From the NCBI RefSeq assembly GCF_900111485.1, contig NZ_FOIC01000031.1, forward strand, positions 1 through 32,210: DNA of 32,210 bases, written 5' to 3'. The number at the start of each line of letters is the position of its first letter. Within the stretch, counting starts at the first letter, position 1. The notes below the pieces were generated by a model. The model ran no database searches. It saw only the letters and a list, made by a program, of their open reading frames with translations, and was not told where the DNA came from. Origin of the DNA: Natrinema hispanicum (GTDB lineage: Archaea; Halobacteriota; Halobacteria; Halobacteriales; Natrialbaceae). The position numbers and the translations under genes are program-made. Positions 1 through 28,998 of the stretch are shown piece after piece.

Positions 1-250
1 ACTTGTAGATCGTGCTGTAGTCGGGGAGGTTCTCTCGATCGAGACCGAGTACGTCACAAATCTCGGTCATGTACTTCAACCGATTCGGCGTTTCACGGTA
101 GCTGTGACCTTCTTCGAGCCGAAAACAGTGTAGGACGACATGGACCCAGCGGGCGAACCCGCCGCTGGCGGGCTCGCCCGCGTGCTTCCCCAACGCTTGT
201 TTGGCTAGGTCACGACACTGCTCAACGAAGTCGAGGAGATCGATTTCCAT
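1..250 (-). CDS. IS5-family transposase, N-terminal part (runs off the window)
   Basis: The reverse strand from the ATG at 250 encodes about 83 residues beginning MEIDLLDFVEQCRDLAKQAL and including a stretch rich in His, Arg and Tyr (LHCFRLEEGHSYRETPNRL). This is the N-terminal region typical of haloarchaeal IS5-type DDE transposases. The catalytic DDE residues lie beyond the window edge. The visible part has no frameshift or stop, so the copy could be intact. Family assignment is from remembered haloarchaeal transposases, not a search. Confidence 0.8.
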   Translation of the reverse strand, partial: MEIDLLDFVEQCRDLAKQALGKHAGEPASGGFARWVHVVLHCFRLEEGHSYRETPNRLKYMTEICDVLGLDRENLPDYSTIYK

Positions 251-326
251 AGGACAGAATCGAATTCCTCGGCTTCATCCTTCTAAGCCAGTGATATCGG
301 CTGATTAGATCGCTGTTCAACAGAGC
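1..326 (-). mobile_element. IS5-family insertion sequence, right part only
   Basis: The window begins inside an insertion sequence whose transposase is read on the minus strand. The outer end is probably at the motif GTTCAACAGAGC (315-326), whose reverse complement GCTCTGTTGAAC resembles the terminal repeats I recall for haloarchaeal IS5 elements. The other end lies outside the window, so the inverted repeat and target duplication cannot be checked. The putative end sits only a few bases from the stop codon of the next gene (331-531). Confidence 0.6.
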
Positions 327-330
327 AATG

Positions 331-531
331 TTAACCGTCCTCGCAGACGACATCGCGGAGTTCGGCAAGCAGCTCAGGATGGTTCTGTTCGAGGAGTTGA
401 ATGTCCTCGGTCAGTTCCTCGTTGATTTTCCGCCTGATACGCGAAACCGCTTGGTAATAACGGTCTGACTTCTCATCGGCGTCTAACAACTCACGCTCAG
501 TATCAGTGAGCATCGCTCTCCGTCTCGCCAT
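331..531 (-). CDS. small conserved haloarchaeal protein, unknown function (66 aa)
   Basis: A 66-residue protein starting MARRRAMLTDTERELLDADE and ending in VVCEDG. It is highly charged, predicted mostly helical, and has a basic N-terminus followed by an acidic C-terminal half (ELTEDIQLLEQNHPELLAELRD). Short proteins of this type recur in haloarchaeal accessory regions, but I do not know a function. The reading frame continues upstream to 825, but the ATG at 531 fits best: a TATA-like CCATATATAGG (560-570, reverse strand) lies about 34 nt ahead, as in leaderless haloarchaeal genes. It is divergent from the RAMP operon and shares its promoter region, so it could be a regulator or accessory of that locus; this is inference. 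Confidence 0.65.
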   Translation of the reverse strand: MARRRAMLTDTERELLDADEKSDRYYQAVSRIRRKINEELTEDIQLLEQNHPELLAELRDVVCEDG

Positions 532-556
532 TCCTTGATTGGATAATTCTGGTTCT

Positions 557-642
557 GTTCCTATATATGGCATTGTTACCACATTAGGGAACGTTCCCAT
601 GATTGGCAAAGTATTAAGTATGTACGTTCCCATAATTGGCAA
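557..642. promoter_or_regulatory. repeat-containing divergent promoter/operator region
   Basis: Three similar direct repeats with approximate consensus GTTCCYATRATTGGCA start at 557, 593 and 626 (36 and 33 nt apart). The copies at 593 and 626 differ at one position over 17 nt; the first is looser. The second overlaps a perfect 12-bp palindrome GGGAACGTTCCC (587-598). The first copy overlaps the TATA-like box of the leftward 66-aa gene, and an AT-rich stretch around 609-623 could be the box of the rightward operon. The arrangement looks like a shared operator for the divergent genes. Confidence 0.55.
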
Positions 643-683
643 TAGAAAGCGCGGAACGCCGGTCAGAAGATGGCCGGAGCGTG

Positions 684-1022
684 ATGGAACACGCCCGACC
701 GCGCTTCGGGACCAACCGAAGCATGAAAAACTCAACCCCCGACTCAATTGAAGGCATCGCTCGCAAGCGTAGTGCCGTTCGCCCAAACTACATCGTGCTG
801 GGCGAGGACACTGACGACCTATCATACATCTACCGTACGTTCGACGAGACGATTCATATCGTCCAGCAGTTCGATCTACGTGGGCGCTCCGTCGATGGCT
901 ACGTGAAATTCGTCCGTGATGAAGTGGATGACCGTGACTGGGCAGAATGGCATTACTACACAGACGACGAAAACCCGTTCAAGGCGCTCGCAAGCACCAT
1001 CAAAACGGGAGTGTCTGCTTGA
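684..1022 (+). CDS. unknown protein, first gene of RAMP operon (112 aa)
   Basis: First gene of the compact operon. The protein has a basic N-terminus (MEHARPRFGTNRSMKNS) and a compact acidic remainder containing YIVLGEDTDDLSYIYRTFDE, VDGYVKFVRDEVDDRDWAEWHYYTD and ending KTGVSA. I recognise no domain. No membrane segment, zinc site or nuclease motif is visible. The ATG at 684 was chosen; the ATG at 723 is equally possible, and a TTG at 636 would overlap the third promoter repeat. Its stop overlaps the next start by one base (TGATG), so translation is probably coupled. Position suggests it belongs to the RAMP module as an accessory subunit or regulator, but this is only context. Confidence 0.65.
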   Translation: MEHARPRFGTNRSMKNSTPDSIEGIARKRSAVRPNYIVLGEDTDDLSYIYRTFDETIHIVQQFDLRGRSVDGYVKFVRDEVDDRDWAEWHYYTDDENPFKALASTIKTGVSA

Positions 1023-1477
1023 TGTCTGGCAACAACGGCCCGAGCTTGGATCTGATCGCTAGACAGGAGATGTCCATCAAAATCCAGTCGTCCTTCACCG
1101 AAGAGGTCGCCCCTAACGCTCACCGAATCAACTACGCAATCAAGAACGGCAAAGGCGTGGGAGTTGATTTCTGGCTGATGATCAGTCGGTTTGATGAGTA
1201 CATCAAACATGTTGGAGACGAGTTCCAGAAGATCGTCGTCCTCGACAATCGGACTCCGAAGATACAACTCTTCCGCCTAGTCCGGTTCATCCATTTCTCG
1301 TTCCTCACTCTCGGCAACGCCATCGGGGAAGGAACCGTTGGCGAAGGGCTTGGATGCTCGGACTCTGAGTACGCCCAAGACATCCTCGCAGACGCCGAAG
1401 AACTGCTTGACGAGTCGGAAGAGGAGTACGAGAACGCGAGTGACGTGGAAACTGAAGTGACCGACGATGACGAGTAA
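1022..1477 (+). CDS. unknown operon protein with acidic tail (151 aa)
   Basis: The start at 1022 overlaps the preceding stop. The protein begins MSGNNGPSLDLIARQEMSIK, has a mixed hydrophobic/aromatic core (VDFWLMISRFDEYIKHV, LFRLVRFIHFSFLTLGNAI) and a long Glu/Asp-rich C-terminal tail. It has no recognisable catalytic motif. The size and a probably helical core would suit a small-subunit-like component of a class 1 CRISPR effector, but I cannot demonstrate homology. Its last codons overlap the start of the next small gene (1467), keeping the operon gapless. It could instead be an adaptor unique to this haloarchaeal module. Confidence 0.65.
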   Translation: MSGNNGPSLDLIARQEMSIKIQSSFTEEVAPNAHRINYAIKNGKGVGVDFWLMISRFDEYIKHVGDEFQKIVVLDNRTPKIQLFRLVRFIHFSFLTLGNAIGEGTVGEGLGCSDSEYAQDILADAEELLDESEEEYENASDVETEVTDDDE

Positions 1478-1598
1478 CGCCCGTATGACGGACCGCATCG
1501 TCCACACGGATGACGGTGAAACCTACAAGGAGTACCGCCTCAGCGCGGTCGCCTGCTGCTCCATCGACGTGCTGGAGGGCGCGCTCGAATCTCACTGA
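1467..1598 (+). CDS. putative 43-aa protein bridging the operon
   Basis: A short reading frame starting MTSNARMTDRIVHTDDGETY and ending in VLEGALESH. It starts 11 bases before the end of the upstream gene and stops one base before the ATG of the Cas7-like gene. Without it the operon would have a gap of about 120 nt, unlike every other junction here, which argues that it is translated. It contains one adjacent Cys-Cys pair. No family is recognised. An alternative is that it serves only as a coupling ORF for the gene at 1600. Confidence 0.5.
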   Translation: MTSNARMTDRIVHTDDGETYKEYRLSAVACCSIDVLEGALESH

Positions 1599-1599
1599 G

Positions 1600-2472
1600 A
1601 TGCCACCCAAAATGAAGGAATCCGACTTCCGTGACGTGTTTGTCCGAATCCGCTCTGACCTGCTCATCATCGACGACAGCATCATGACCGACCGTCACCA
1701 TGCCAGCAACGGCAACTACGAGGACGACGACCCGCAGAACCAGATCGGCGGCATCATCCCCGCGTTCTCACTGTCAGGCTGGCTTCGTCACGGGATGGAG
1801 AAGGTCATGCAGGAACGGGGCGGCACCGCCTGTCACCCCGGCGAGTCCAACGCCAACTTCCGCAAGGATGGCGTGTACTCCCGCGATCTCGATGCCGGGT
1901 ATCACTCGAAGGGAGATTGCATCGACGACGAGGACGGCGACGGGTGCGTGATTCTTGACCTCTTCGGCGGGTTCGGGAATCGCCCCGGTAAGGTGATGCG
2001 GCGGCCCATCAAATTCTCGCCTGTTCGCTCCAGCGTGGACTACACGCGAGGACAAGCCGAAGGCCACTACCGACGCCTGAACCGAAACATTGTCTCTCGC
2101 AACCGGGAGGACAACCGCGAGCCGCTCAGGAACGTGGAGGTAGACGCCGTAGCGAATCTCGACGGCTGCTGGCATCTTTCCTTCCGTGAGGCCAAGCCCG
2201 AGTTCGTCGCGCTGCTCGCTGAGGCCATCGACTATCTCAACACCCACCAGACCGACTTCATGCACCAGCTGGGCGGCGCTCGGAACTTCGGTGGTGGGAT
2301 CGTGGACTGCGAACTCGTGAACCCGCTCTACGAGGAACACGAACTCCGCCGCGTCTTCGACCGAGGCAAGGGCAAGACGCAGAAGATGGAGGAGAAAGAC
2401 GAGACGTGGGAAAACAACCATTTCCACGAGTTCGAGGCCGCACTCGCCGAGCGGGTCAAAGAGGGACCATGA
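1600..2472 (+). CDS. Cas7/Csm3-like RAMP protein (290 aa)
   Basis: This looks like a divergent RAMP-superfamily protein of the Cas7/Csm3 type, which in class 1 CRISPR effectors forms the backbone that binds guide RNA. Three hallmarks appear in the expected order. IIPAFSLSGWLR (about 52-63) matches the early IPGSSLKGxLR element. CVILDLFGGFGNRPG (116-130) matches the middle LFG element. GGARNFGGG (225-233) is the C-terminal glycine-rich loop. Between them lies a charged, Cys/His-containing region. A conserved catalytic Asp as in Csm3 cannot be assigned with confidence. The ATG at 1600 follows the 43-aa ORF by one base; the frame is open further upstream, but that would overlap it. It is coupled by ATGA to the next gene. 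It most likely belongs to the array-less haloarchaeal HRAMP-type module. Confidence 0.75.
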   Translation: MPPKMKESDFRDVFVRIRSDLLIIDDSIMTDRHHASNGNYEDDDPQNQIGGIIPAFSLSGWLRHGMEKVMQERGGTACHPGESNANFRKDGVYSRDLDAGYHSKGDCIDDEDGDGCVILDLFGGFGNRPGKVMRRPIKFSPVRSSVDYTRGQAEGHYRRLNRNIVSRNREDNREPLRNVEVDAVANLDGCWHLSFREAKPEFVALLAEAIDYLNTHQTDFMHQLGGARNFGGGIVDCELVNPLYEEHELRRVFDRGKGKTQKMEEKDETWENNHFHEFEAALAERVKEGP

Positions 2473-3209
2473 GCGGCGTGATGCTCGCCGCCTTCCGGCA
2501 CGACGCTCACAAGTTCACCGGCGAGAGTCACGACAACGCCCGCAAGGAGTTCGCTGGCGTTCCCGTGAACCAGTCGGTGCCGGAGGGCGCGGACGGCGAT
2601 GCAGCGGCGCTCTCACGTCCGCTGGACGTACAGGAGCAGACCGTCCCGACCCACAACGACCACTACCGACTGTCCATACTCACCGGCGAAACCGCCTACA
2701 ACCCCCGCGAGTTCTCCCGGGCGACCATCGAGAGCGAGGTTGGCGACTTACTCGCCGTCGAGGACGGCCAGACCGCACACGAGCGGTGGCTGGAGTCCGA
2801 CGTGGCCGCTGCGTTCAACGAGTCGGTCTATCACCCGCACACGTCGCTGAAGTACCACACGCTCCTCGTGGCGGCGCTCCTCGACAACTACCGCGCAGAC
2901 CATGAGTTCGCCGACCTCCGGCTCATCGTCGATTCGGCGGGAGAGATCGTCCCCTTCCGCACCGTCCTCGACGGCGGGCGGTTCGCACTCCGCATCGACG
3001 CGGACCACGGGGGACGACCGTCGGCCCGTCTCGGGAGTCGCCCGTGGCGGTCGTGGGCGTCGGCGTGGAACCGTCTGACTGAGCATCCGCTCGATACCGA
3101 CCGCGACAAGTACGACATGACGCTTGACGCCAATCTCCGCCGCATCCAGTCATGGAGTACCGCACTCCAGTACATCGAGGACTTCGCTGAGTGGAGGCCA
3201 GACCAATGA
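2469..3209 (+). CDS. uncharacterised protein between the two RAMP genes (246 aa)
   Basis: The start at 2469 overlaps the Cas7-like stop as ATGA. The protein begins MSGVMLAAFRHDAHKFTGES and is rich in charged residues and Trp (SRPWRSWASAWNRL near 200-213). I see no RAMP glycine loop, no HD, PD-(D/E)XK, HNH or PIN signature, and no membrane segment. Its middle part (YHPHTSLKYHTLLVAALLDNYRAD) is probably helical. The published description of the haloarchaeal derived module (Makarova and colleagues, recalled) includes one conserved uncharacterised protein next to the Cas5 and Cas7 homologues; this gene is the natural candidate by position. It could be a large- or small-subunit equivalent, or a novel effector. 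Confidence 0.7.
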   Translation: MSGVMLAAFRHDAHKFTGESHDNARKEFAGVPVNQSVPEGADGDAAALSRPLDVQEQTVPTHNDHYRLSILTGETAYNPREFSRATIESEVGDLLAVEDGQTAHERWLESDVAAAFNESVYHPHTSLKYHTLLVAALLDNYRADHEFADLRLIVDSAGEIVPFRTVLDGGRFALRIDADHGGRPSARLGSRPWRSWASAWNRLTEHPLDTDRDKYDMTLDANLRRIQSWSTALQYIEDFAEWRPDQ

Positions 3210-4093
3210 CGGAGATTCAGCAAGTTCTCTGGGAACTGCGGATGGACTACATCGGCCACCCCTACTACGTCTCGGGGAACGCCATCCTGCACGCCCTCGG
3301 CCAGCACCTCGACGTGGAGACGCACGGGGCGCTGTCAGTGAGCCACGGAGTGTTCGTTCCCGGCCAGTTCGGGACGTTTCCCGAAGAACACAGTCAGTCG
3401 GGAATCCGCCCGTACCTCGGGAGCGGCCTGCCGGACGTAGAGACCTACGACGACTTGTTCCTCCAGCGAGAGGCGATGCACCCGTGGATGCTGGATACCC
3501 GCGCTCGAGACGCGCTGAACACGCATGATCTCCGCGTCCACGGCGGCCACCCGACCCTCGCTCACGAGACTATCATGGGCCGTCGGGAAGACCAGCGGAA
3601 ACAACAGCAGACCACGAAATGGTACGTCCACGCCTACCTTCACGCCGATGACCCGGCGGTGCTCCCGCTCGGCGAGGATGTGCTGGAGGGGCTCCAGTTC
3701 GGCGGCAAGCGCAACTACGGCTACGGCGAGGTCCAGCTGAAGGACACGCAGATGGTGGACCTCGACGGCCTGGACTACTCTCGGCTTGAAGGAGCGGAAA
3801 CATACTTGATCGAGTTGGTGACACCGTTCGTGCTGAAGTCGGAGTATTCAGGAGTCAACGACCGTACCGTCCCGTGGTGGTGGGCCGAGAACCGCGACGA
3901 TCTCCGGCTCCGCCAGGAGAGGATTCTCGAACAGCGTGAGGTCTTCCGGCTGGAGACGGTGGACCACGGGCAGGTCGTGAAGTATCTCGGCGACCGCCCC
4001 GTGGAGACCGCGGAGAACGGTCTTACTCGTCTCAGCTCACACTCCCGATACGGCTTCGGAGAACTGCGATTGAAGCCCCTTGTCAAACAGTAG
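3206..4093 (+). CDS. Cas5-like RAMP protein with two glycine-rich loops (295 aa)
   Basis: The last gene of the operon, coupled by ATGA at 3206 (a GTG at 3191 is an alternative start). Two RAMP-type glycine-rich loops are visible: GGKRNYGYG at about 166-174 and HSRYGFGE at about 279-286, suggesting two ferredoxin-like halves as in Cas5, Csm4 or Cas6. An N-terminal YYVSGNAILHALG (20-32) may be the first fold element. Cas5-type proteins cap the guide-RNA 5' handle in Cascade-like complexes; some act as RNases. A catalytic His/Lys set cannot be assigned. With the Cas7-like gene it defines the module. Cas6-like RNA processing is the main alternative. No array follows downstream. Confidence 0.72.
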   Translation: MTEIQQVLWELRMDYIGHPYYVSGNAILHALGQHLDVETHGALSVSHGVFVPGQFGTFPEEHSQSGIRPYLGSGLPDVETYDDLFLQREAMHPWMLDTRARDALNTHDLRVHGGHPTLAHETIMGRREDQRKQQQTTKWYVHAYLHADDPAVLPLGEDVLEGLQFGGKRNYGYGEVQLKDTQMVDLDGLDYSRLEGAETYLIELVTPFVLKSEYSGVNDRTVPWWWAENRDDLRLRQERILEQREVFRLETVDHGQVVKYLGDRPVETAENGLTRLSSHSRYGFGELRLKPLVKQ

Positions 4094-21738: not shown

Positions 21739-23103
21739 CTATTCTTCTGGACAGTGCACGCGGAACCAGCAGATCTCTGCTTTCTTCTTCGGCTTTCCAT
21801 CCATGGCACTCGTGATTGTGGCACAATATTGGCCGTCAACTTTCTCGGCGGGAACCGGCTCTTGTTCCTTACAGTCATCGAAGCAACCACACGAACCGTG
21901 CTTGCCGCCGTGCTTGCCACCGTGTTTGCCGCCGTGCTTGCCACCGTGTTTGCCGCCGTGCTTGCCACCGTGTTTGCCGCCGTGCTTGCCACCGTGTTTG
22001 CCGCCGTGCTTGCCACCATGCTTGCCACCGTGCTCGCCACCGTGTTTGCCACCGTGCTCGCCACCATGCTTGCCACCGTGTTTGCCACCGTGCTCGCCGT
22101 GGCCCCCGAAGAACTGATCGAACATGTTCTCGTGCTTCATGTGGCCTTTCTTGTCGTGCCAACCTTTCCAGCCTTTCCAGCCCTTCCAGCCTTTCCAGCC
22201 ACCTTTGCCTTTCCCGCCTTTCTTGCGAGTGGCATAGCTGACAACAAATGGGAAGGGTGCACAGATCGTTACTTCTTTTTGATCTCCCTCGATGGTGAAT
22301 ACGTCCGGATCGACTTCGTCCCCAATATCATCATAGGTATCTGGCCACCACTCGCCGTACTTGTACTTGTACGCGATGTTGAGTCCGTCAGGACACTTCG
22401 GCGGGCATTGAATATCGACCATTTCGGCGTACAACACCGTGTCCTCGTACATAATAACGACAGCCGTGATATCTCGATCTCCAGGCAGCGTAACGTGCGC
22501 GGTGCCGTCGGCCCCAACAGTGGGTTCGTACGTTTCCTTTCCGTCCCCGAATGTAACCTCCACAGTGAGCGTATCACCACTGGGAATATTCGACGTAGTA
22601 ATGGCTATTTTTTCACAGGTGATGGTCACTTTGTCAACCGTCGGAACGTCTCCACCGTCACACGAGTAGAACGTTGCGTTGCTGATGTCCTGTGATCCTT
22701 CCGGCAAGCACCATGTAACATTGGCTTCCGCATCCTGGGGCACGTCCGCCAGGAAACAGTTCTGTCCGGCTTTCAGCGTCAGATAGTCGGCATCCTCCGG
22801 AATGGCCGCTGCCGGGAGCGTAAAGCAGGTCCCGGAGAGACCGGTGTACAAGGCAACAGCAGTTGGTTCAGTATCACACACCGCGCGCACGCAGTTGATA
22901 CATTGTCCTGCCTGTCCACCGGGTGGTCTCTCCGGTGGTGTGCTAGCTTCCCCACAGAACTCTGCTTCGATACTGTCTCTACTCTGTGCAGTGGTTGTCG
23001 CCGGGAAGCCACCGAGTGCAGCGAGGCTTATGCTCCCTGCGGTGATTCGTTTTAAATACCGTCTGCGATTAACACTACGACACTCCTGGTTGTCTTCTCT
23101 CAT
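21739..23103 (-). CDS. Tat-exported protein with Gly-Lys-His-Gly repeats (454 aa)
   Basis: A twin-arginine signal is clear: NRRRYLKRITAGSISLAALG, with a likely cleavage after TTTAQS, and no lipobox cysteine. The mature part (about 40-300) is beta-rich, with many cysteines (CINCVRAVC, CEKIAI, QCPPKCPDG), and contains TVEVTFGDGKETY and an acidic region. Then come four GWK units (about 309-324) and some sixteen tetrads GGKH/GGEH (about 347-412), followed by SCGCFDDC and a C-terminal domain ending WFRVHCPEE. The histidine array suggests metal or surface binding; no known family is recognised. The ATG at 23103 was chosen over a GTG at 23130 because of the TATA-like CTATAAC about 37 nt upstream. 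Confidence 0.8.
   Translation of the reverse strand: MREDNQECRSVNRRRYLKRITAGSISLAALGGFPATTTAQSRDSIEAEFCGEASTPPERPPGGQAGQCINCVRAVCDTEPTAVALYTGLSGTCFTLPAAAIPEDADYLTLKAGQNCFLADVPQDAEANVTWCLPEGSQDISNATFYSCDGGDVPTVDKVTITCEKIAITTSNIPSGDTLTVEVTFGDGKETYEPTVGADGTAHVTLPGDRDITAVVIMYEDTVLYAEMVDIQCPPKCPDGLNIAYKYKYGEWWPDTYDDIGDEVDPDVFTIEGDQKEVTICAPFPFVVSYATRKKGGKGKGGWKGWKGWKGWKGWHDKKGHMKHENMFDQFFGGHGEHGGKHGGKHGGEHGGKHGGEHGGKHGGKHGGKHGGKHGGKHGGKHGGKHGGKHGGKHGGKHGGKHGSCGCFDDCKEQEPVPAEKVDGQYCATITSAMDGKPKKKAEICWFRVHCPEE
21898..22106 (-). repeat. 12/24-bp tandem repeat coding for GGKH/GGEH units
   Basis: The 12-bp units alternate between GTGCTTGCCACC- and GTGTTTGCCGCC-like versions, producing a 24-bp higher-order period for much of the array. 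The alternation points to expansion by duplication of two-unit blocks. It sits entirely within the coding region, and every change in number of 12-bp units keeps the frame. Confidence 0.85.
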
Positions 23104-23585
23104 AGTCCAGATAGTGTCGTAACCTGTCACAGTATTGTTATAGAGGTCCTGTATCCTGTTTTGTAGAGTAGCACGTAACTACCATCCGACGTTATCTACG
23201 CCTAAAAGTAATCTCTCAGATTCTAGTATGCGCTACAGTACTACGGATACAATCACGGAGAAGCAGCATCAACTCGACCGAATTCGAGCGGTTGCTCGAG
23301 TCGTATGGTTTCAATCACGGGAGTAGCTACTGACCATCGCTTCAATCCGGCTGTCCCGGCGACCCCGCGACCTAAATGTCAATAACTGTAGTTATTGGTA
23401 TAGATCAATCCTGAACACTGGAAGTAAGCGGATACTCTGCGGTGACGTTCAGGGGAACGAAGAATCGGCTAGATGCCCAGTAGAGCACTCGCATCGGTAA
23501 TTACAACACGCAATCGGATCCAGCATCGGGTTCACGCGACGCAGAAATCGAAGCTCGTTCCGAAGACGGTGACTCGAGGCGGTCG
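23104..23585. other. intergenic region with TATA-like box, small ORF and palindrome
   Basis: A 482-bp gap between the Tat-exported protein gene and the amidohydrolase gene. Near 23140 is the TATA-like box of the former. A 32-codon rightward ORF (23228-23326, starting MRYSTTDTITEKQHQLDRIR) may be a remnant or nothing. An 18-nt inverted repeat lies at 23380-23397. No RNA gene or transposon end is evident. Confidence 0.5.
23380..23397. promoter_or_regulatory. perfect 18-nt inverted repeat, possible operator
   Basis: CAATAACTGTAGTTATTG has two perfect 8-bp arms around a 2-bp centre, in an AT-rich setting unlike the surrounding GC-rich DNA. It lies in a gene-free stretch and could be a dimeric regulator site. 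Confidence 0.4.
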
Positions 23586-27336: not shown

Positions 27337-28998
27337 ATGAACGCACGCAATCAGGTGCTCGTCGTACTTACCGCGCTGATGCTCGTGTGCTCGAGCGGGG
27401 CGATGGTAACAGCCGCAGCGAGCGGCAATGCCATCCAGAGCAGCGACACCAGCGAGGACGAGTACGACTCGGCAAACGAAACAGCAAACGAGACTGTAGT
27501 CGACGAACAGGACGGCGTCACCGCCGAGGGTGACGACGAGGACGAAACTGAGGCGGCGGACAACGAGTCCGCACAACAACCCGCGTACGTGACGTTTAAC
27601 GATCAGACGACCGACGGCGAGACGGTCGTCGTCGCGAACGTCACGCTGGCGAGCCCCGGGTTCGTGTCGATCCACGACAGTAGCCTCCTCGTCGGCAACG
27701 TCATCGACAGCGTCATCGGCACCTCGGAGTACCTCGAAGCGGGGACTCACGAGAACGTCACGGTGACGCTCGACGACCCGCTCGAGGAGAGCGAGACCCT
27801 GATCGCGATGCCGCATCGCGATACGAACCAGAACGAGACGTACGACTTCGTCGAGACTGAGGGTGAAGAAGACGTTCCGTTCCTCACGCCTGACGGCGAA
27901 CCGGTGACCGACGAGGCAGTGGTCACCGTCGAAGGCGCAGTTGAGGAGGAACCGGCTGACGAGATGCCAGCCGAGGACAACGTCACCGAGGAAGAGCCGG
28001 CTGAAGACGACATGGCTGATGATGAAGACGACGTCGATGACGTCACCGAGGAAGAGCCGGTCGAAGACGACATGGCAGACGATGAAGAGGACGTCGATAA
28101 CGTCACTGAAGAAGTGCCGGACGAAGACGAGATGCCGATAGAAGAAATTCCGGTCGAGGGTGAGGGGCAGCCGGTCTTCATTACAGTCGAAAACCCAACC
28201 ATCGAGGACGTAACCCTCGAGAACGTCACCGCGTACATCGCTGTCGTCGGTGAAGACGTCGACACTGAGCAGATCGTTGATCAGATCGACGACATCACTG
28301 ACGGCGACGTCTCGGCTGACAACGTCACCGTCGAGGAGATGCCAGCCGACGAAGAGGAAGTCGAAGACGAGATGGAGGAGGATGAAGACAACGTCACTGA
28401 GGAAGAACCGGTCGACGAAGACCTTGAAGAGGACAACGTCACTGAAGAAGAACCGGTCGACGAAGACCTTGAAGAGGACAACGTCACTGAAGAAGAACCG
28501 GTTGACGAAGACCTCGAGGAGGACAACGTCACCGAAGAAGAGGAAGTCGAGGACGAGCTCGAGGCGACCGCGTTCAACATCAGTGATCTCGAGGCACCAG
28601 ACAGCGCCACGATCGGTGAGAACATCACCGTGACGGCGAACGTCTCGAACCCCACTGATGAGGAACGCACCGAAACGATCGAGTTCCGTCTCGAGGGTGA
28701 CCTCGTCGCCGACCAGAACGTGACTCTCGAGAGTGGCGACAGCGAAATCGTCGAGTTCGAGGTCGACACCAGTGACCTCGAGCCCGGCGAGTACATCCAC
28801 ATGGTGCTGGGTGACGAAGCCGGCGAAGTCGCGACGATCGAGTTGACCGAAGCCGACGATGTTGGTGTCGAAGAGGGCGTTGACGAGACCGAAGACGACA
28901 CCGGTCTCGAAAACGAGACGGATGAAGACGAGATCGGCATCAACGAAACCGACGACGGTTTCGATGACGGAGCCGATAGTGGCGTGACGGCCGACTAA
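27337..28998 (+). CDS. exported hyperacidic repeat protein, DUF7282-like with CARDB-like domain (553 aa)
   Basis: A Sec-type signal peptide (MNARNQVLVVLTALMLVCSS, cleavage near AAAS) leads into an acidic linker. Residues about 82-200 look like the haloarchaeal DUF7282 beta domain (YVTFNDQTTDGETVVVANVT, FVSIHDSS, YLEAGTHENVTV). Then follows an extremely Glu/Asp-rich region with recurring DNVTEEEP units, including three 15-residue repeats. Within it lies a second short DUF7282-like piece (GQPVFITVENPTI to VTAYIAVVG), and at about 410-505 a CARDB-like domain (LEAPDSATIGENITVTANVS). About twenty N-X-S/T sequons suggest heavy N-glycosylation. It is probably a cell-surface or secreted protein; no anchor is visible at the C-terminus. 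Confidence 0.82.
   Translation: MNARNQVLVVLTALMLVCSSGAMVTAAASGNAIQSSDTSEDEYDSANETANETVVDEQDGVTAEGDDEDETEAADNESAQQPAYVTFNDQTTDGETVVVANVTLASPGFVSIHDSSLLVGNVIDSVIGTSEYLEAGTHENVTVTLDDPLEESETLIAMPHRDTNQNETYDFVETEGEEDVPFLTPDGEPVTDEAVVTVEGAVEEEPADEMPAEDNVTEEEPAEDDMADDEDDVDDVTEEEPVEDDMADDEEDVDNVTEEVPDEDEMPIEEIPVEGEGQPVFITVENPTIEDVTLENVTAYIAVVGEDVDTEQIVDQIDDITDGDVSADNVTVEEMPADEEEVEDEMEEDEDNVTEEEPVDEDLEEDNVTEEEPVDEDLEEDNVTEEEPVDEDLEEDNVTEEEEVEDELEATAFNISDLEAPDSATIGENITVTANVSNPTDEERTETIEFRLEGDLVADQNVTLESGDSEIVEFEVDTSDLEPGEYIHMVLGDEAGEVATIELTEADDVGVEEGVDETEDDTGLENETDEDEIGINETDDGFDDGADSGVTAD
28387..28545 (+). repeat. 45-bp tandem repeat inside the acidic protein gene
   Basis: Units start at 28387, 28432 and 28477, with a partial fourth at 28522, each encoding DNVTEEEPVDEDLEE. 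The first units are nearly identical at the DNA level, implying recent duplication. Degenerate versions occur earlier near 27979-28130. Confidence 0.85.

Follow-up and report, generated by a model that had tools for sequence, protein, structure and literature searches.

The gene at positions 21739-23103 of the window (the whole stretch of 32,210 nucleotides of DNA that was analysed) encodes a protein that, judged by its sequence, is exported by the Tat pathway. According to the structure models, its array of sixteen GGKH/GGEH units is a disordered insert between the two halves of a conserved C-terminal beta domain and not a tail. We propose extracellular chelation of copper, zinc or nickel as the putative function of this loop, a reading to which we assign a probability of roughly 0.4.

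Gene and protein architecture

The gene is read from the minus strand and starts 482 bp behind a dihydroorotase-like gene, to which it is tandem. Span (stop codon included), strand and start at ATG 23103 are as the sequence-only reading had given them. The parts of the gene are:

21739..23103 (-): whole gene, 454 aa plus stop, ATG at 23103
21742-23103 (-): coding part without stop
23130 (-): alternative start, in-frame GTG, adding 9 aa
22984..23103 (-): Tat signal, residues 1-40 (NRRRYLK ... TTTAQ), aligning with the RR-type signals of relatives
22648..22983 (-): Cys-rich N-domain, residues 41-152 (CxxC, LKAGQNCF, WCLPEGSQDISNATFYSC), from alignment, search, Pfam and model
22402..22647 (-): Ig/FN3-like domain, residues 153-234, from alignment, model and structure comparison
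22219..22401 (-): C-terminal beta domain, first half, residues 235-295 (CPDGLNIAYKYKYGEWWPDTYDDIGDEVDPDVF...APFPFVVSYATRKK), from alignment and models
21895..22218 (-): disordered His/Lys/Gly-rich loop insert, residues 296-403, from pLDDT of about 30 and composition
22159..22200 (-): GWK repeats (GWKGWKGWKGWKGW), residues 302-315, from Tandem Repeats Finder and sequence count
21898..22089 (-): 16-unit GGKH/GGEH array, residues 339-402, from Tandem Repeats Finder and count
21742..21894 (-): C-terminal beta domain, second half, residues 404-454 (SCGCFDDCKEQEPV...ICWFRVHCPEE), from alignment and models
23104..23283 (-): upstream region kept in the four orthologues, probable promoter by alignment

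The Tat signal recognized earlier is present, with a twin-arginine motif (NRRRYLK), a hydrophobic stretch and TTTAQ, and the RR pair is invariant across 12 aligned sequences. The earlier description as a surface protein stands in part: export is supported by the sequence, the location at the surface is uncertain. A lipobox, a C-terminal membrane segment or a PGF-CTERM motif was not seen in the protein sequence, and hence we speak of an exported protein.

The AlphaFold2 model was built on an alignment of six natural sequences. Its pLDDT is about 85-96 in the larger part of domains one and two and about 90 in the strands beside the loop, but falls to about 30 in the loop itself. Modelled strands (248-255 and 381-392) flank the loop on either side, hence the array is predicted to be an insertion between strands of one domain, the C-terminal domain (235-454), which the 108-residue loop (296-403) splits in two. 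The same strand order was obtained when the Haladaptatus C-domain was modelled alone. Export signal, three beta domains and a loop inside a conserved domain are what sequence and models together depict. The sequence-only reading had correctly placed a Cys-rich beta region ahead of the array, but the array sits inside a domain rather than after one; likewise, of the Cys motifs said to flank the array, SCGCFDDC does follow it, but no Cys motif lies directly before it.

The middle domain is modelled as an Ig-like beta sandwich (pLDDT about 87-96), present in one copy here and in one to three copies in relatives. In VIA comparisons it matches Ig/FN3 folds with Z values of 4-5.2 and an rmsd of about 2.5 over about 80 residues, including adhesin extender domains (6xi3, Z 5.1; 5irb, Z 4.7; 4p99, Z 4.3 with 27% identity over 77 residues). 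Since the Z values are low and cytokine receptors, beta-glucuronidase domains and adhesin extenders tie as matches, we claim only the Ig/FN3 fold class. The Pfam family Big_3_5 appears below its cut-off in the relatives L043 and L011. For the C-domain, whose model has a mean pLDDT of only 65, the best VIA match is a de novo Ig dimer (Z 5.4) and Foldseek returned no E below 0.26; no clear solved relative of its fold was found among the VIA and Foldseek matches listed.

Repeat array and loop composition

The array consists of exactly 16 units, 14 GGKH and 2 GGEH, and GWK occurs four times inside the loop ahead of it, first at residue 302; the sixteen units agree with the count made from the sequence alone. 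Tandem Repeats Finder scores of 296 for the array (17 copies of 12 bp) and 70 for the GWK run show that neither is a chance pattern. The array holds 16 HGG motifs and 16 HxxxH spacings. Its DNA has the 24-bp periodicity that had been noted before: neighbouring units (lag 1) differ by a mean of 1.87 bases, units two apart (lag 2) by 0.79, and there is a run of identical lag-2 unit pairs. This higher-order repeat sits in the 3' part of the array, where the 24-bp period arises from alternating codon use of units near the C-terminal end. The length variation expected from it is found between close species, the four orthologues having 16 (window), 12 (Haloterrigena sp. H1, with additional HGEH units), 5 (N. 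hispanicum orthologue) and 3 (N. limicola) GG[KE]H units. The higher-order repeats differ as well, with a 24-bp repeat in the window gene and mixed GGKH/HGEH in Haloterrigena sp. H1; this mix and the unit numbers mean that the arrays expanded separately. The loop, most likely a metal-catching one, changed its length quickly between close relatives. Among 391 haloarchaeal genomes the GGKH DNA pattern was found only in the window gene and its orthologue in G008, and in no other gene.

Histidine is confined to the loop to a large degree. The loop holds 21 of the 23 His of the window protein, and only 0-2 His are found in the body, 290-390 aa long, of nearly every full-length member (one member has 6). 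Across 13 C-domain proteins the loop, counted up to CK[EK] after the array, is 16-115 aa long and nearly always rich in His and Lys. In 12 of them it holds 3-21 His (about 12-24% of residues), and the thirteenth, L053 of G376, has 1 His and 17 Lys/Arg. Loop sequences are unrelated between genera, and those of Haladaptatus contain no HGG. The C-domain with its loop removed is 82% identical between Natrinema and Haladaptatus (86% and 78% for the two halves, with dS saturated or 1.8). Conserved halves around unrelated His-rich loops indicate that selection keeps the scaffold and the loop composition, not the loop sequence. Within the clade, loop dN/dS is 0.03-0.10, a rough value from a repeat alignment, suggesting that the letters of the loop are kept though its length is not.

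Relatives and distribution

No Pfam family matches the window protein at E up to 10, no family that fits came from NCBIfam or from sequence searches of the PDB, and no literature on this protein family was found. Accordingly, neither Pfam nor NCBIfam assigns the N-terminal region to a known family with an unrelated established role, the result that the sequence-only reading had named as counting against it. Close orthologues occur in 4 of 29 genomes of the genus, the window's included, and are 91-100% identical over the non-repeat part; the other three match N. hispanicum, Haloterrigena sp. H1 and N. limicola. With more distant members, 19 of 125 genomes of the archaeal family are covered. A search with the N-domain across the class found it in 19 of 391 genomes, about 5% of sampled haloarchaea. 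The loop-bearing C-domain is rarer, with 8 of 391 genomes (2%) from 5 of 86 genera. In Haladaptatus pallidirubidus homologues lie on secondary replicons. Where the C-domain is missing, most members finish with a Pro-rich linker and a Lys/Arg-rich tail that has few His. The C-domain in turn is found on short Tat proteins that lack the N-domain and continue into long charged tails (G330, G376, G394). In one of these, L050 (G330:C1 near 277322), the long tail consists of clear DDWKHDKKRDEKH repeats, so that the C-domain has a second His/Lys/Asp array attached to it that is unrelated to the one in the window.

Origin and genomic setting

The gene lies between pyrD and the dihydroorotase-like gene (pyrC), and DNA collinearity places it at the same position in all three close relatives. 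The gap is empty of the gene in ten congeners, where the neighbours are 112-712 bp apart. The N-domain tree unites the C-domain proteins and G122 in a group with support of 99/99, in which families f1, f3 and f9 and Haladaptatus are mixed; the homologue of the congener G012 stands apart from it. Given the empty gap in congeners and a subfamily tree that mixes archaeal families, these sequence comparisons suggest that the gene was probably acquired horizontally. Most simply, the common ancestor of the four species would have gained the gene by transfer, although it may instead have been lost in the other congeners. Transfer had been suspected before on the grounds that CTCGAG is absent from the gene. 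The absence is real, but as a sign of transfer it is weak and adds little, because about 8% (8.2%) of 1365-base stretches of the window also lack the site, as does window 1-3503; the case for transfer rests better on the empty site, the family-mixing tree and a G+C content of 54% in the gene without the array versus 61% for the window.

Judged by pyrD identity, G024 is the nearest genome that lacks the gene. Other genes stand behind its pyrD; at this locus (L082) the next one looks from its sequence like a gene for a SipW-type signal peptidase. Genes seem to have been gained and lost on the 3' side of pyrD. In two congeners (L083 and L086) the gap without the gene contains a small acidic ORF of about 80 aa, which was not seen at the matching place in the window.

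Elsewhere in the window, positions 27337-28998 (+) encode a second repeat protein, a probably exported DUF7282 protein of 553 aa (E 3.8e-43) with very acidic 60-bp and 45-bp repeat arrays (EEEPVDEDLEEDNVT). At 1510-4093 (+) three ORFs stand in a row, the first weakly Csm3-like and the third weakly Cmr3-like (RAMP); no Pfam family was found for these ORFs with RAMP-like matches, which are possibly part of a divergent CRISPR effector module.

Neighbours of the homologues do not recur beyond pairs or triples of near relatives, and neither a metal transporter nor a metal regulator was found as a recurrent neighbour, which speaks against the metal reading of the loop. LarC nickel-insertion genes lie beside the G122 and G105 homologues; they were set aside as a guide because these members have no His-rich loop and only two genera are involved. 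Downstream of one Haladaptatus homologue, L012 6778-8607 (+) of Haladaptatus litoreus encodes a Tat-exported protein with Q/N repeats of about 25 aa (NQNVNINVIQNAAxGAAQGA), a possible amyloid-like matrix protein, and Q/N-rich exported proteins also lie near the G122 and G105 homologues.

Putative function and alternative explanations

An exported, Cys-rich protein of three beta domains would present the disordered His/Lys/Gly-rich loop from a hairpin of its C-terminal domain. The loop would chelate transition metals outside the cell, copper(II) first and then zinc or nickel. By analogy with the prion HGGGW motif, each HGGK unit may hold Cu(II) through its His imidazole and the amides of the two Gly that come next. 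Added units would then provide a greater metal capacity, and the folded body would hold the loop in position, either on the surface of the cell or within the extracellular matrix.

The main rival to metal chelation is an electrostatic or matrix-tethering role, which we consider less likely. The loop would be a polycationic glue that binds acidic S-layer glycans, exopolysaccharide or extracellular DNA and so holds the acidic body, with His being only a mild, pH-tunable positive residue. The charge distribution fits, the loop (residues 290-403) carrying a net charge of +20 and the body one of -31, and most relatives likewise have loops of positive net charge. Adhesin extender domains are among the many FN3 folds that the Ig-like domain resembles, and the N-domain is also found in TasA/camelysin-like proteins. 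Lys/Arg-rich tails close the family members that lack the C-domain; taken with the basic, His-poor G376 loop, they mean that what the wider family has in common may be positive charge, not His. However, plain Lys/Arg would suffice for such a tether, and 3 of the 13 loops (L011, L043, L050) have a net charge of 0 or -1 and are His-rich nonetheless. At several molar salt, as in haloarchaea, charge interactions are screened, while metal coordination is not. That His is confined to a loop which is exported and disordered favours metal coordination rather than mere charge.

It is improbable that the protein is a structural or biomineral exoprotein, in which the Gly/His/Lys/Trp loop forms a hydrated, sticky or mineral-nucleating segment of a fibre or matrix and metal serves for cross-linking at most. 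The N-domain shared with TasA/camelysin-like proteins and the Q/N-rich exported proteins near the Haladaptatus, G122 and G105 homologues would be in line with it, but no Q/N-type neighbour was found beside the window gene. Moreover, the Haladaptatus Q/N repeat is widespread in that genus, also where the window-type gene is absent, so the link is not specific and Q/N-repeat matrix proteins were rejected as partners. We give equally little weight to the possibility that the array is a neutral passenger without a role, slippage-prone 12-bp repeats in a permissive loop. Higher-order repeats that differ between close species are what slippage would leave behind, but relatives without the GGKH repeat keep a His/Lys-rich loop at the same place, and unit differences within the clade are mainly synonymous.

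Comparison with known systems

The proposed chelation by the loop has its closest counterpart in the octarepeat of the prion protein, PHGGGWGQ, which is a copper-binding region (PMC2663819). Both are tandem, disordered, Gly-rich repeats with a spaced HGG core, an adjoining folded domain and a variable unit number, and the window array has 16 HGG in a segment with a pLDDT of about 30. In contrast, its unit is of four residues (HGGK/HGGE) without Trp and the third Gly, and it lies in a loop inside a beta domain, the protein being archaeal and exported, with no homology to the prion protein. A full HGGGW per repeat is absent and Trp occurs only in the separate GWK run, which makes this an analogy and not membership. 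Disordered His-rich loops also contribute to zinc coordination in the exported Pseudomonas aeruginosa protein PA4063 (PMC8561739). The window protein shares export and such loops, but PA4063 has a ferredoxin-like fold in place of three beta domains with Cys, and genes of the window type have no recurrent metal-uptake genes nearby.

Two haloarchaeal TasA/camelysin-like proteins (Peptidase_M73, PF12389; G309 and G034) have a related N-domain (LKAxxxCYxAxV ... ISNATFYxC; E 1e-19 to 1e-21). PF12389 matches these two only weakly and the window protein not at all, and the latter has a Tat signal; one module is common to them. With Ca2+-stabilised adhesin repeats (NF033510; 4p99, 5irb, 6xi3) the protein shares an Ig-like beta sandwich (VIA Z 4-5), but its domain contains Cys and is present as a single copy, and NF033510 (Ca_tandemer) gave E 0.082 and 13.3 bits against a curated cut-off of 50.

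Archaea have been reported to lack metallothioneins (PMC3600143). It is conceivable, if rather doubtful, that the proteins described here form an unnamed haloarchaeal exoprotein family that is an extracellular counterpart of these, with a Cys-rich scaffold, an exchangeable metal-chelating loop and, in one clade, an independent HGG copper array tuned by repeat number. If the loop binds metal, it would be an extracellular, protein-based metal buffer in haloarchaea, and the 16, 12, 5 and 3 units of close relatives would be a natural series relating capacity to repeat number. If it does not, a Lys/His-rich segment kept on acidic haloarchaeal exoproteins would still be unusual. The scaffold and its exchangeable loop show clearly how a conserved domain can host a fast-evolving disordered segment.
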